Assembly: GCA_015064415.1 (NCBI GenBank)
Contig: SVSG01000023.1
Span: 1 to 35,238 of the forward strand
Direction: 5' to 3'
Origin: Oscillospiraceae bacterium
GTDB taxonomy: Bacteria > Bacillota > Clostridia > Oscillospirales > CAG-272
DNA: 35,238 nt
Shown here: positions 31,481-35,046 of the stretch, piece by piece
How positions within the stretch are numbered: the stretch's first letter is position 1
How the letters are laid out: every line of letters starts with the position of its first letter
Notes under the pieces: model-generated
Told to the model about the DNA's origin: nothing
The model's input: the letters and a program-made list of their open reading frames with translations, nothing else
Databases searched by the model: none
Program-made: the position numbers and the translations under genes

Positions 31481-32184
31481 TTATACAAATTGTGCGGCCA
31501 ATTTCATGACCTCCGAAAAATTGCCGTCGTGCACATTGTACGTATAGGTTTGATTAAAAGGAGCTTGCCCGTTAAAACAGGAGATCTGTAAAGCGGTGTC
31601 CACGAGGTAAAAATTGAGGATTTTCCCTCTTATTGACAAACTACACTCATGAATTTTTGAAGCAGTAACGCCGTTTTTTCACAACGCACTTTCATCTGCA
31701 TCGACGCTTTTTCAACGTAGTGATTCTCTTGCTGCATCACAAGCACGCCAACGTTTTCCAAAAAATACTGCATCAGCAGCCAATCCTTATTGGTGGGAAA
31801 GTAATTCGGCTCTTTTACCTCCTGCATCCCTTCCTCCGAGCGCACGGTAAACATCACCGAATATTTTATAACGTCCTTCAGATGATACAAGATCAAGGCG
31901 AGTGCCGCGCCCCATGCGGCCGTGTCATCACGCCGATCGTCGCTTTGAAAAAGGATGCACGCCTCATCCGTGCCCGCAAGCTCCCTGATCTGCTCCACCA
32001 CGCGGTAGATCGGTCGTCTTTTGGAGGAACGGCATTCCTTTCTGACGGGATTTGAATAAAAGCAGGAGCTTAGCCAAACCTCGATAAACACACAGCCGTC
32101 CACCGTAACGGCTGATTTTTTCACCTCTCCCACCGATACGTAACAGTCAAACAAGCTCATGCAAGAACGATCGATCACATCCAT
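31481..32184 (-). pseudogene. Unknown gene interrupted by a one-base frameshift
   Basis: The intact frame from ATG 32184 (behind GAGGTGA; an in-frame GTG lies at 32193) gives about 184 residues and stops at 31630. The adjacent frame, entered near the A5 run around 31653-31658, continues as a protein-like sequence (for example RGKILNFYLVDTALQISCF and NVHDGNFSEVMKLAAQFV) to TAA at 31481, about 55 residues longer. One extra A would join the two parts into a protein of about 235 residues. I do not recognise the family: the body is soluble, cysteine-rich and mixed alpha/beta. The frameshift may be real decay, slippage-based switching or a sequencing error. It lies upstream of spoVT in the same direction. 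Confidence 0.6.
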
Positions 32185-32364
32185 GCCACTCACCTCAAAA
32201 ACATAGTATTTTATCCTATTGTATCATTTTTGTGCCGCAAAGTCAAGGCAAGCACTTTTTCCTCCCAAGCAAGAGATCTTCCCTCACTTTTTGTTTTTAC
32301 ACAAACCGCGCGACCATGCTGTCTGCGCGGCATTTGAAAAAACTTTCGATTTTCGGAAAAAGTT
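32185..32364. other. Gap between two divergent transcription units, no gene seen
   Basis: About 180 bases, moderately AT-rich, no credible coding frame. An imperfect inverted repeat (AAAACTTT near 32338 and AAAGTTTT near 32359) around CGATTTTCG lies just ahead of the promoter at 32365. It could be a regulator site or a weak hairpin. Confidence 0.4.
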
Positions 32365-32393
32365 TTGGAAGTGATGAGAAAATGCGGTATAAT
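32365..32393 (+). promoter_or_regulatory. Sigma-A promoter of the adenylyltransferase-PARG gene
   Basis: TTGGAA (32365-32370), 17 bases, TATAAT (32388-32393). The roughly 100-base leader contains GGGGAC/GTCCCG around 32433-32450, a possible hairpin. Confidence 0.75.
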
Positions 32394-32494: not shown

Positions 32495-34063
32495 ATGAAG
32501 ATCGCAGTACTGTTCGGTAGCTTTAACCCCATGACGAATGCACACCTTGCCGCCATGAAGGAGGCGGTTGCGCACCTTGGTGCCGACCGCGGGCTTTTCG
32601 TTGCCACCAACGGAAAGTACCTGAAGAAAAAAACGGTCAAGCATGACGATGCCTTTTACCTGAGCGAGGAGGAGCGCAAGGAGATCATCGAAAAGGCCTG
32701 CGAGGGCGAGGAGAAGCTCGCCTTCTGGGGCTTCGAGATGGGCGGCATCAGCCCCAAGCGCTACAAGACCCTTTCGAAGATCCAAAAGGAATACCCCGAC
32801 GCCGAGCTCTACGAGATCCAGGGCGCGGACAAGGTGCGCAGCATCCCGAGATTCGGGGACGGGGAGGAATACGTCAGCCACGTCCGCTTTGCCGTGTTTG
32901 CAAGGGGCGGGATCGACCTTGCGGCACTGCTGAATACCGATCCCCTGCTCTGCCGCTACAAGGACAGATTCCACCTCCTGCCTGCGCTGAGCGGCTCGGC
33001 CGAGATCAGCTCCACCGAGGTGCGCCGCCGCTTTTACGCGGGTGAGAGCTACACCGACGTCGTGCCGCAGGCCACCGCCACGGTGATGGCAAGATATTCC
33101 CCTGCGGACTTCACCCCCACCTTTGCGGAGCGCATGGCCGTGATGATGAAGGACGGGCGCTTTGGCCCGCACAACGCGCGCAAGGAGGTCTACGCTCTCA
33201 ACACCAAGCTGTTCAACGCCTGGAAGACGGGAAACGCCGAGATCGAGCTTGGCGACTATCACGCCTTTCTTGACGGCACAAAGCTGTACGAGCGCAGCTT
33301 CGACATAAGCGACAAGGGCACGGTGTACCCCGACGTACAGACGGGATGCCTCAATATCGACTGCATTGAGCTTGCCGAAAAGCTGCTTGCGAAGGGCTAT
33401 GATCCCGCCATTCTCAATCTGGCCTCGGCCAAAAAGCCGGGCGGCGGGTACCGTGACGGCATGGGCGCACAGGAGGAGTCGCTTTGCTACGCCTCCACGC
33501 TCAGTCTGTCGCTGTATCAGTACAGCGACCCCAAATACATCAACATCCGCGAAAGCGGCGTGCCCGTCAAAAAGACCGGCTATCCGCTGGACATCAATTT
33601 CGGCGGGGTCTACACGCCGAACGTCACCTTCTTCCGCAACAACGCGGCAAGCTTCTACACCCTGCGGGAGCGCAGCTTTTGCTGTGACGTCATCACCGTG
33701 GCGGCCCTCTCTTTCAACGGGAGATCACATTACGCCGAGCTGGACGAGCTCTCCTTTCGCTCCGAGACGGGTGGCTTTACCCCTGCGGGCGAGGAGATCA
33801 TGAAGAACAAGATCCGCACCATCTTCCGCATGGGCGTGGAGCACGGCAAGGACGCGCTTGTTCTGGGGGCCTTCGGTTGCGGCGCATACCGTCTGCCCGC
33901 GCCCGAGGTGGCCAAGCTTTTCCGCGTGGTGATGGAGGAGCCCGAGTTTAAAAACAAATTCCGCCTTATCGTATTTGCCATTCTGGAAAAAGCGGGCGGG
34001 CCCCAAGGCCCCGAAGGCAAGTTTGTCGCCTTTTACCGCGAGTTTGGCACGTATCAGGCCTGA
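32495..34063 (+). CDS. NadD-like adenylyltransferase fused to a PARG-type macrodomain
   Basis: The 522-residue protein combines two modules. Residues 1 to about 205 are a nucleotidylyltransferase: GSFNPMTNAHLAAM (T/HxxH motif) and SAEISSTEVRRRF (ISSTxxR), as in nicotinate/nicotinamide mononucleotide adenylyltransferases. Residues about 215-522 are a TIGR02452-type poly(ADP-ribose) glycohydrolase domain: NLASAKKPGGGYRDGMG followed by AQEESL, i.e. GGG at 316-318 and catalytic E327/E328 in the GGG-X7-QEE signature, and later GAFGCGAYR. The fusion ties making NAD-like dinucleotides to removing ADP-ribose, suggesting NAD salvage or ADP-ribose recycling. The start is behind GAGGAGAAAGGA. Confidence 0.88.
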   Translation: MKIAVLFGSFNPMTNAHLAAMKEAVAHLGADRGLFVATNGKYLKKKTVKHDDAFYLSEEERKEIIEKACEGEEKLAFWGFEMGGISPKRYKTLSKIQKEYPDAELYEIQGADKVRSIPRFGDGEEYVSHVRFAVFARGGIDLAALLNTDPLLCRYKDRFHLLPALSGSAEISSTEVRRRFYAGESYTDVVPQATATVMARYSPADFTPTFAERMAVMMKDGRFGPHNARKEVYALNTKLFNAWKTGNAEIELGDYHAFLDGTKLYERSFDISDKGTVYPDVQTGCLNIDCIELAEKLLAKGYDPAILNLASAKKPGGGYRDGMGAQEESLCYASTLSLSLYQYSDPKYINIRESGVPVKKTGYPLDINFGGVYTPNVTFFRNNAASFYTLRERSFCCDVITVAALSFNGRSHYAELDELSFRSETGGFTPAGEEIMKNKIRTIFRMGVEHGKDALVLGAFGCGAYRLPAPEVAKLFRVVMEEPEFKNKFRLIVFAILEKAGGPQGPEGKFVAFYREFGTYQA

Positions 34064-34096: not shown

Positions 34097-34594
34097 ATGA
34101 AGGAAAGCTTATTTCATACTTTGGACCAACTTCTCGCCGTCAACAAGGGCGGCGAGAAGAAAAATTTGCTGATCGCAGGTAAGGATTTTGCAACCCTGGA
34201 CGGCGCGCTGTATTTTCTGCGCAGGTGGATCGTGGAAAAGCACTTTCACCTGCTGGAGCTTGACGAGGCATGCTATGACTGGCACCCCGAGGTATCCTCC
34301 CGCGACTTGTTCGAGCGTCTGAGCGTGCCGAACACCGTCCTGCTGGTAAAAAACTACGCCACGCTGCAATGGAGCGCACTCACAGAGGACACGCCGCACA
34401 ACTTTTTACGCGACGCGGCACTGCACCGCCACTACGGGTGCGGCAACGATTGGTGCCCCACCGACGAGCTGCCGCATCTGCTTTTCGTGGTGGCGTTGAA
34501 CGATTATCAGACCATGTACTGGGATGCGCGCGAGGCTTCCGCCTTCGCCACCTATCGCGTGCCGCGCGATCCCGCACGCTTCGACAAAAAATAA
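34097..34594 (+). CDS. Unknown protein, possible degenerate AAA-like domain
   Basis: The 165-residue soluble protein starts MKESLFHTLDQLL and contains LLIAGKDFATLDGALYFLRRW, a hydrophobic strand with LLELDEA (Walker-B-like) and LLFVVALNDYQ (sensor-1-like), but no Walker A motif. This weakly recalls an ATPase lacking its P-loop, though I cannot assign a family. Only a poor Shine-Dalgarno (AAAGAG) precedes the ATG, 33 bases after the PARG fusion, so it may depend on translation of that gene. It ends directly at a truncated DUF1810 remnant, so its own 3' end may also be rearranged. Confidence 0.5.
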   Translation: MKESLFHTLDQLLAVNKGGEKKNLLIAGKDFATLDGALYFLRRWIVEKHFHLLELDEACYDWHPEVSSRDLFERLSVPNTVLLVKNYATLQWSALTEDTPHNFLRDAALHRHYGCGNDWCPTDELPHLLFVVALNDYQTMYWDAREASAFATYRVPRDPARFDKK

Positions 34595-34910: not shown

Positions 34911-35046
34911 AAGCCTCCCTCCGAGAGGGAGGGGGACCGCGTTAGCGGTGGAAGGAGCCTGCGTGACTTTAGGTTTGTACTAACTTCATTGTAACGCACT
35001 CTCCCTCAGTCAGCTTCGCTGACAGCTCCCTCCCGGAGGGAGCCTT
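34911..35046. repeat. MITE-like palindromic element (CTCCCTCC family)
   Basis: Each end carries a hairpin CCTCCCTCC-n-n-GAGGGAGG (34914-34932) or the inverse CTCCCTCCCGGAGGGAG (35026-35042), and next to it a second hairpin CCGCGTTAGCGG (34937-34948) or GTCAGCTTCGCTGAC (35009-35023). The ends are inverse of each other, giving terminal inverted repeats around a 50-base centre without coding capacity. Such elements are widespread in gut Clostridia. No target-site duplication could be fixed by eye. Confidence 0.7.

Follow-up and report, generated by a model that had tools for sequence, protein, structure and literature searches.

The window analysed here, the whole stretch of 35,238 nt of contig SVSG01000023.1 (assembly GCA_015064415.1) from the gut bacterium Oscillospiraceae bacterium (CAG-272), carries a gene that joins an N-terminal domain of NMN/NaMN-adenylyltransferase type to a C-terminal microbial PARG macrodomain (Table 1). 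The first-pass annotation had described a single frame with NadD-like and PARG domains, and the frame itself, Pfam, the motifs at their residues and the predicted structure all bear this out. In Pfam, residues 6–179 matched CTP_transf_like with 45.8 bits (cut-off 21) and residues 247–382 matched PARG_cat_microb (PF10021) with 81.8 bits (cut-off 23.5). The NCBIfam cut-off for microbial PARG (TIGR02452) was passed with 106.5 bits (cut-off 50), and the NadD model TIGR00482 gave 89.9 bits, below its cut-off of 112.45. No Nudix domain was matched in the C-terminal half with Pfam or NCBIfam, and one PRK05379 model (NadM) touched residues 4–28 of the transferase only (E 0.046). The predicted structure has an NMNAT/NadD-superfamily fold across the whole N-terminal domain and a PARG fold in the C-terminal half; it is unreliable (pLDDT < 50) at residues 44–51, where the PPHK loop of NadD would align, and at residues 312–332, the region of the PARG catalytic loop. 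A GGG-X6–8-QEE loop with the catalytic Glu is the hallmark of microbial PARGs, and the window protein carries it.

Table 1. Features at the fusion locus (positions in the window).
Feature	Position	Strand	Remarks
187-aa flanking frame	31630–32193	-	no family match over cut-off
Sigma-70-like promoter candidate TTGGAA-17-TATAAT	32365–32393	+	upstream of the fusion gene; weak
Fusion gene	32495–34063	+	ATG to stop, one frame, 522 aa
N-terminal NMN/NaMN-adenylyltransferase-like domain	32495–33112	+	residues 1–206; Pfam and predicted structure
Nucleotidyltransferase motif GSFNPMTNAH	32516–32545	+	residues 8–17; GSFNPxTxAH in 12/12 clade members
Motif ISSTEVR	33005–33025	+	residues 171–177; SSTxxR/SSSxxR in 11/12 clade members, absent in L111
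C-terminal microbial PARG macrodomain	33170–34045	+	residues 226–517; Pfam and predicted structure
PARG catalytic loop GGG-X7-QEE	33440–33478	+	residues 316–328 (GGG 316–318, QEE 326–328)
GAFGCG loop of the PARG fold	33866–33883	+	residues 458–463; in 6/7 PARG-fused genes (all six intact ones), the seventh being cut before the loop
165-aa frame	34097–34594	+	starts 33 bp downstream, possibly co-transcribed with the fusion gene; no family match over cut-off

The promoter candidate is graded weak because its pattern was matched twice on the two strands, against 1.0 ± 0.9 matches in shuffled sequences. Beyond the fusion gene and the frame downstream of it, the window holds an inverted repeat (34911–34931 and 35026–35046) with 21-nt arms that are 90% complementary and lie 94 nt apart.

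Distribution of the fusion gene

The fusion recurs: six further genes of this kind, one of them truncated, are present in five other genomes. When a genome collection (84,980 species) was scanned for short peptide patterns, seven loci matched. They include three full-length fusions (L012, L013 and L014, all in ruminant-gut Clostridia assemblies) with 64–69% identity to the window protein. Two more copies, 46–47% identical to the window protein, are present in G348, a genome from another family, of which eight other searched genomes had no fusion. In these five intact relatives both halves are conserved over their full length (46–69% identity). A chance frame or an assembly fault was rejected on the strength of these independent assemblies: as full-length relatives are found in three other Clostridia assemblies and two paralogues elsewhere, the fusion is real and no accident of assembly. 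In addition, an order-level search of 245 genomes brought a fusion in G1082 (L127, 1501–2493 (+)), cut inside the PARG after GAQEESLCYR and followed by a frame with a WYL domain.

The fusion gene is rare and patchy. Of 291 genomes of the class, 14 contain PF10021, and in two of these, the source genome and G348, the same frame also holds the transferase (frames of the remaining ones were judged by length or by eye). A profile built from six fusions matched 113 of 391 class genomes, mostly through NadD or PARG alone, and a full fusion was again present in these two genomes only, the source genome included. When 398 genomes of the phylum were searched with a transferase-half profile, the source genome scored 325.6 bits and the best other among the matches listed 98.3 bits. 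Twenty genomes of the same genus (52–97% complete) gave no match to the fusion, which is therefore not required for basic NAD metabolism.

A phage or plasmid origin was considered and rejected. Two scans of viral contigs yielded no relative of the fusion and a further scan only a stretch of NADAR (see below), and none of the phage and plasmid records covered 80% of the query (phage, 0/24). The 24 phage records that matched include stand-alone PARG, and one among the 20 listed matched via the transferase half; stand-alone NADAR genes also occur in phage records. The match in MT838584 (‘Bacteriophage sp.’) was discarded, being a NadD that groups with ordinary NadDs.

In the PARG half, QEE is present in all seven fused genes. 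The position of GGG reads GGG, TGG, CGG, GGG, CGG, GGA and GGG in the window protein, L012, L013, L014, L032, L034 and L127, respectively, with the first and third glycine varying among relatives; the GGG-X7-QEE reported in the first-pass annotation thus stands for the window protein, but its GGG is not conserved as such. In a PARG tree of 28 rows, from which the cut L127 was left out, the six intact fused PARGs formed one group (support 100/99) beside four stand-alone PARGs of Bacteroidota, the nearest sampled relatives of the fusion in this domain.

A transferase clade with PARG and NADAR partners

The transferase half belongs to a clade of 12 genes in 11 genomes. Seven of these genes are PARG fusions and three are NADAR fusions; of the other two, one overlaps the gene of a NADAR and one is solo. 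NADAR is an ADP-ribosyl hydrolase unrelated to PARG and of another fold, and its roles are only partly known. In a transferase-domain tree (204 columns) of 42 hand-chosen rows, 12 from the clade and 30 from outside it, the clade genes formed one group with support 100/97; within it the seven PARG-fused genes came together (100/98), as did the four NADAR-partnered genes with the solo one (99/94). All 30 other rows, including the housekeeping NadDs of carrier genomes (L003, L158, L159 and L160), fell outside. An earlier tree of 64 rows, made from domain matches to A3 (E up to 1e-5, at least 140 columns, 16 duplicates removed, L003 not included) and holding 10 of the clade genes, gave the same grouping with 100/99.

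A weaker match came from G032, a genome of the same bacterial family as the source, which encodes a transferase-NADAR fusion of 357 aa with an adenylyltransferase of the same kind. Searched against 156 genomes of the family, this protein had matches in six: the NADAR fusions of G032 and G929, an overlapping pair in G919, the PARG fusions of the source genome and G927 (the latter a 519-aa frame, identical with the one in L014) and, in G964, a protein made of NADAR and Macro. The G929 protein (L111, 1105–2553 (-)) has 482 aa and a C-terminal PcrA/UvrD tudor domain, and its transferase half is without SSTxxR. In G919 the stop of the transferase and the start of NADAR, which are separate genes, overlap as ATGA. 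The G964 match was rejected as a NADAR-NMNAT protein, as it has no transferase; NADAR and Macro lie there in one frame of 346 aa (L113, 940–1980 (-)), with a metallophosphatase-like frame nearby (by eye).

A further transferase-NADAR fusion, of 404 aa, is encoded in G1167 (L154, 892–2106 (-); CTP_transf_like 41.1 bits, NADAR 180 bits). This is the genome of the Bacteroidia metagenome assembly behind L015, found among the seven genomes of L012–L018, and the fusion lies on another contig. The housekeeping NadD of G1167 groups with NadDs of other Bacteroidota genomes, and no clade member was found in 58 other genomes of its family; since a stray contig is possible in this assembly, the occurrence of the clade in two phyla rests on one binned contig. 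Across the class, NADAR was detected in 12 of 291 sampled genomes and none of its 13 matches lay in a frame longer than 307 aa, so transferase-NADAR fusions are rare in this sample.

The solo clade member, in G104, shares a 7.9-kb contig with a separate PARG on the same strand, the two being separated by an LRR-like gene (by eye) and a gene of 91 aa; this PARG (L022) was placed away from the fused group in the PARG tree. Separate genes for the two halves in close relatives had been put forward in the first-pass annotation as an argument against its proposal. This argument applies in part: all seven genes with this PARG lineage are fused, one of them cut, and the partners are separate in G919 and G104, where we read the gene arrangement as linkage rather than as refutation.

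In a NADAR tree of 22 rows (L105, with no NADAR stretch long enough, was left out), which has long branches and many open forks, the four transferase-associated NADARs did not form one group, and their monophyly was rejected (p-AU 3.15e-10, difference of 113 log units). The NADAR of G1167 was placed with the YbiA-type proteins and the other three in a group that holds phage NADARs; by this tree, the NADARs joined with the transferase clade come from at least two lineages. As two unrelated hydrolase families are also involved, we infer that joining took place three times or more, with PARG in one case and with NADAR in two.

NadD-HD fusions were considered as the same phenomenon and rejected: the five long-frame ordinary NadDs that were scanned all carry HD, together with RsfS in one case. 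L146 (1498–2964 (+)) encodes a NadD-HD-RsfS triple fusion of 488 aa. A NadD fused to NadE (L117, 6001–7320 (+)) lies on the Alkaliphilus plasmid pB6464 amid Nudix, isochorismatase and nicotinate phosphoribosyltransferase genes.

Active site and gene context

The TxxH, GxD and SSTxxR motifs of NadD are present in the window protein as T14-x-x-H17 (with A for G), G110/D112 and S172-S173-T174/R177. In all 12 clade members TxxH retains its His and GxD its Asp (GxD residues of the window protein, L013, L127 and L111 were read from the alignment or the sequence). Loss of nucleotide-binding residues, which the first-pass annotation had named as evidence against its proposal, was not seen; by motif comparison and predicted structure, nucleotide-binding and catalytic motifs are kept in both halves. 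In E. coli NadD, residues H19, R46 and D109 matter for activity (PMC1249556), and docking places H45 and W117 in stacking contact with the pyridine ring and Y118 in contact with its carboxyl or amide (PMC8035330).

The pyridine-stacking Trp (E. coli W117) is replaced by Phe at residue 120 of the window protein. It is present in all 54 other rows of the alignment, L117 (a NadE fusion) and L107 (a NadD from a phage record) being counted among them and the housekeeping NadD of the source genome (L003) not. Within the clade, five members (L032, L034, L007, L111 and L112) retain the W, and in the remaining seven of the 12 its place is taken by F (window protein, L012), S (L013, L014), N (L127), A (L125) or L (L154). 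The PPHK loop of NadD is also replaced, with no clear counterpart in the clade, the alignment of this loop being uncertain. With the motifs kept, the Trp replaced and the PPHK loop without a clear counterpart, AMP transfer by clade members looks possible and it is less certain which acceptor the transferase half uses, above all for the PARG branch; since the stacking Trp is gone in seven members, an acceptor other than NMN or NaMN may be used. The earlier suggestion of an unusual acceptor for the N-terminal half has therefore gained some footing from these replacements and from the PARG-fused N-termini scoring below the NadD cut-off, but five of the 12 members kept the Trp.

Two clade members passed TIGR00482, those of G919 (132.0 bits) and G032 (123.1 bits), and the other ten scored 88.3 to 98.5 bits, under the cut-off. 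The source genome has an ordinary housekeeping NadD over the same cut-off (G000:C2); the fusion was thus rejected as its sole NadD and is considered accessory. Another NadD over the cut-off was found in 10 of the 11 carrier genomes, the exception being G032 (91% complete), where the NADAR fusion was the only one found.

Gene context of the clade members varies and is not conserved. Integrase genes were found near L012 and L014, the latter also having LRR_5 and Sel1 genes nearby. Both G348 copies have metallophosphatase and Sel1 genes close to them (one Sel1 match under the cut-off), and a WYL gene lies by L013, approximately 3 kb downstream of the intact fusion, as well as by L127; LRR matches there were under the cut-off. 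The clearest context link is in G1167, where the transferase-NADAR gene is followed on its own strand, at a distance of 60 bp, by a gene with NUDIX and NrtR_WHD domains (L154, 121–831 (-)). Its closest NCBIfam model is an ADPR-responsive repressor (137.4 bits, under the cut-off of 400). ADP-ribose, used at 50 mM, releases MsNrtR from DNA (PMC6800001), and the G1167 pair offers a ready test case for ADP-ribose-responsive control.

Among the neighbours of clade genes scanned with Pfam, no ART, TIR or RNA-repair family was detected. PADLOC gave no match for the window protein (P0001); its scan of two relatives with NADAR brought a single candidate model, PDC-M42C, which covered the NADAR part. 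On the same two proteins the NCBIfam NADAR anti-phage model scored 41.9 and 50.9 of the 240 bits needed. Assignment to a known defence system was rejected on these grounds.

Possible roles of the fused enzyme

Our tentative preference, held at slightly under an even chance, is for an accessory two-headed ‘repair and refill’ enzyme. Its PARG half would hydrolyse ADP-ribose bound to macromolecules, most likely at RNA 2′-OH or phosphate ends or on protein, the marks coming from an ADP-ribosyltransferase toxin or from a phage or cellular ART. Its N-terminal half would adenylylate NMN and/or NaMN and restore the NAD consumed by the modification. Each ADP-ribosylation costs one NAD, and stripping together with adenylylation would undo both harms, which would make the role of the fusion a protective one. 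The halves would share a situation, ADP-ribosylation with loss of NAD, and not a channelled substrate. To our knowledge ADP-ribose is not a substrate of any NMNAT, so channelling is unsupported, and the two halves could be coupled without passing a metabolite from one to the other; direct recycling of ADP-ribose to NAD in one protein, as the first-pass annotation had proposed, finds no support as written, PARG freeing ADP-ribose and no NMNAT being known to us that would use it.

A repair-and-refill role draws on the existence of one clade (100/97) with seven PARG-fused, four NADAR-partnered and one solo member. The ATGA overlap in G919, the NrtR-type gene behind the G1167 fusion and the second NadD over the cut-off in 10 of 11 carrier genomes speak for it too. 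Since the same transferase clade is joined to a second, unrelated remover of ADP-ribose, ADP-ribose removal and NAD-type synthesis are suggested to serve one job, and the exchange of PARG and NADAR fits a fixed refill function with changeable mark specificity. According to PMC11833690, bacterial PARGs remove 2′-OH ADP-ribose from RNA and ADP-ribose from phosphate ends and shield E. coli against RhsP2, an ART toxin, and NADARs reverse guanosine ADP-ribosylation; this protection was seen with enzymes of Deinococcus and Streptomyces, not with the subfamily of the fusion. Against this role stand the Phe in place of Trp in the window protein, its score under TIGR00482, the lack of SSTxxR in L111, the gene context that is not conserved, with no ART family among the neighbours scanned, and the absence of the gene from the 20 genomes of the genus.

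The same active site could be read otherwise. It is unlikely, in our estimate, that the transferase clade, specialised and paired with unrelated ADP-ribosyl hydrolases, had its acceptor re-tooled in the PARG branch from NMN to ADP-ribose, ribose-5-phosphate or another phosphoribosyl compound; if it had, the clade would be a coherent enzyme class not described before and the protein a self-contained machine for removal and salvage of ADP-ribose, and any changed acceptor pocket would mean a new reaction of the NMNAT fold. Somewhat less probable is a two-step clearance path, in which the N-terminal half would take the ADP-ribose released by the hydrolase to ATP and ribose-5-phosphate by pyrophosphorolysis, or would use another 5′-phosphoribosyl acceptor. 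Such clearance would agree with TxxH, GxD and SSTxxR being kept while the stacking Trp was exchanged in seven of 12 members (twice each for F and S, once each for N, A and L), and with replacement of the PPHK loop, but the Trp is kept in five, G032 and G919 each have a NADAR-type member that scores over the NadD cut-off, and the loop alignment is uncertain in a region where the model is weak (residues 44–51, pLDDT < 50). Moreover, we know of no reverse adenylylation of ADP-ribose in the NMNAT/NadD family. The NMNAT-Nudix fusion NadM may count as a precedent (PMC9503650, where the title of reference 123 names ADP-ribose pyrophosphatase). Just as improbable as clearance is a sensor or scaffold, with the N-terminal half binding NAD, NMN or ATP and controlling the hydrolase without meaningful catalysis. 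A sensor would be suited by the loss of the Trp in seven members, the absence of SSTxxR in L111 and the TIGR00482 scores of 10 of 12 clade genes, which stay below the threshold for NadD. It would nevertheless have no need for the His of TxxH and Asp of GxD in 12/12 and SSTxxR/SSSxxR in 11/12, and in G032 (91% complete) no NadD other than the NADAR fusion was found to exceed that threshold.

Another possible explanation, to which we give a low probability, is that PARG or NADAR acts on cyclic ADP-ribose signals, Appr-1″-P or NAD- or ADP-ribose-capped RNA and that the N-terminal half restores the dinucleotide. PMC9503650 argues that soluble derivatives of ADP-ribose may be the preferred substrates of viral Macro and NADAR domains, and in phages it places NADAR next to NadM and NadV. 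NAD synthesis is also fed by RyDEP, a phage glycosidase that cleaves cADPR signals (PMC13232231). However, no TIR or RNA-repair family was among the Pfam-scanned neighbours, and the fusion was found in no viral contig or phage record, though stand-alone PARG and NADAR were. Lower still we place a neutral fusion, two neighbouring genes of a mobile accessory region joined and kept by drift. Rarity and patchiness (2/391 class genomes including the source, 0/20 of the genus, 0/13 NADAR matches in frames over 307 aa), integrase genes near L012 and L014 and the cut in L127 would all be expected of drift; conservation of both halves at 46–69% identity in five intact relatives would not, and neither would the occurrence of one transferase clade with PARG, phage-type NADAR and YbiA-type NADAR.

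Compared with the NadD/NMNAT family (TIGR00482, PF01467), the fusion stands in a separate clade, under the NadD cut-off, with Phe for Trp and a hydrolase attached; compared with microbial PARGs (PF10021, TIGR02452; the D. radiodurans and T. curvata enzymes), it adds an N-terminal adenylyltransferase. Like the NMNAT/Nudix enzyme NadM (PRK05379 models; PMC9503650), it joins an NMNAT to an enzyme of ADP-ribose metabolism, but the window protein has no Nudix domain and its partner family cleaves a glycosidic bond, not a pyrophosphate. The phage neighbourhoods of NADAR with NadM or NadV (same source) and NAD reconstitution by phages (NARP) likewise place NADAR genes with NAD-making genes, whereas here we find bacterial single polypeptides, a NadD-type transferase and PARG as well, and no phage-encoded relative was found in the viral contigs and phage records searched. 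The two hydrolase families are those of the PARG and NADAR immunity or antitoxin enzymes (PMC11833690; DarT-NADAR, PMC11125620), which differ in having no NAD-making half, and no ART toxin gene was among the scanned neighbours of the clade.

According to PMC9503650, the link of NADAR with NadM and NadV in phage neighbourhoods and NMNAT-Nudix fusions are already in print. New here is a transferase clade that exchanges PARG and NADAR partners, and no description of an NMNAT-PARG or NMNAT-NADAR fusion was found in the literature searched, as far as its texts were accessible and with subscription journals outside its scope. The cellular role of bacterial PARGs is largely open (PMC11833690). One transferase clade with both hydrolases by separate joinings gives a guilt-by-fusion argument that ADP-ribose removal and the remaking of adenine dinucleotide form one response, and supplies concrete proteins with which such a response can be tested.

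Other arrangements of the two hydrolase families were seen in the loci. A microbial PARG follows directly after a sirtuin-like gene (by eye) in L030 (362–2171 (+)) and L028 (1135–2806 (-)), possibly as a writer-eraser pair. N-terminal microbial PARGs with unexplained C-terminal parts are found in a 665-aa protein running off its locus (L027, 599–2596 (+)) and in a 493-aa protein (L029, 517–1998 (-)). On a Deinococcus ficus plasmid, a 407-aa NADAR protein (L192, 721–1944 (+)) has a weak N-terminal match to SLOG (YpsA) under the cut-off.
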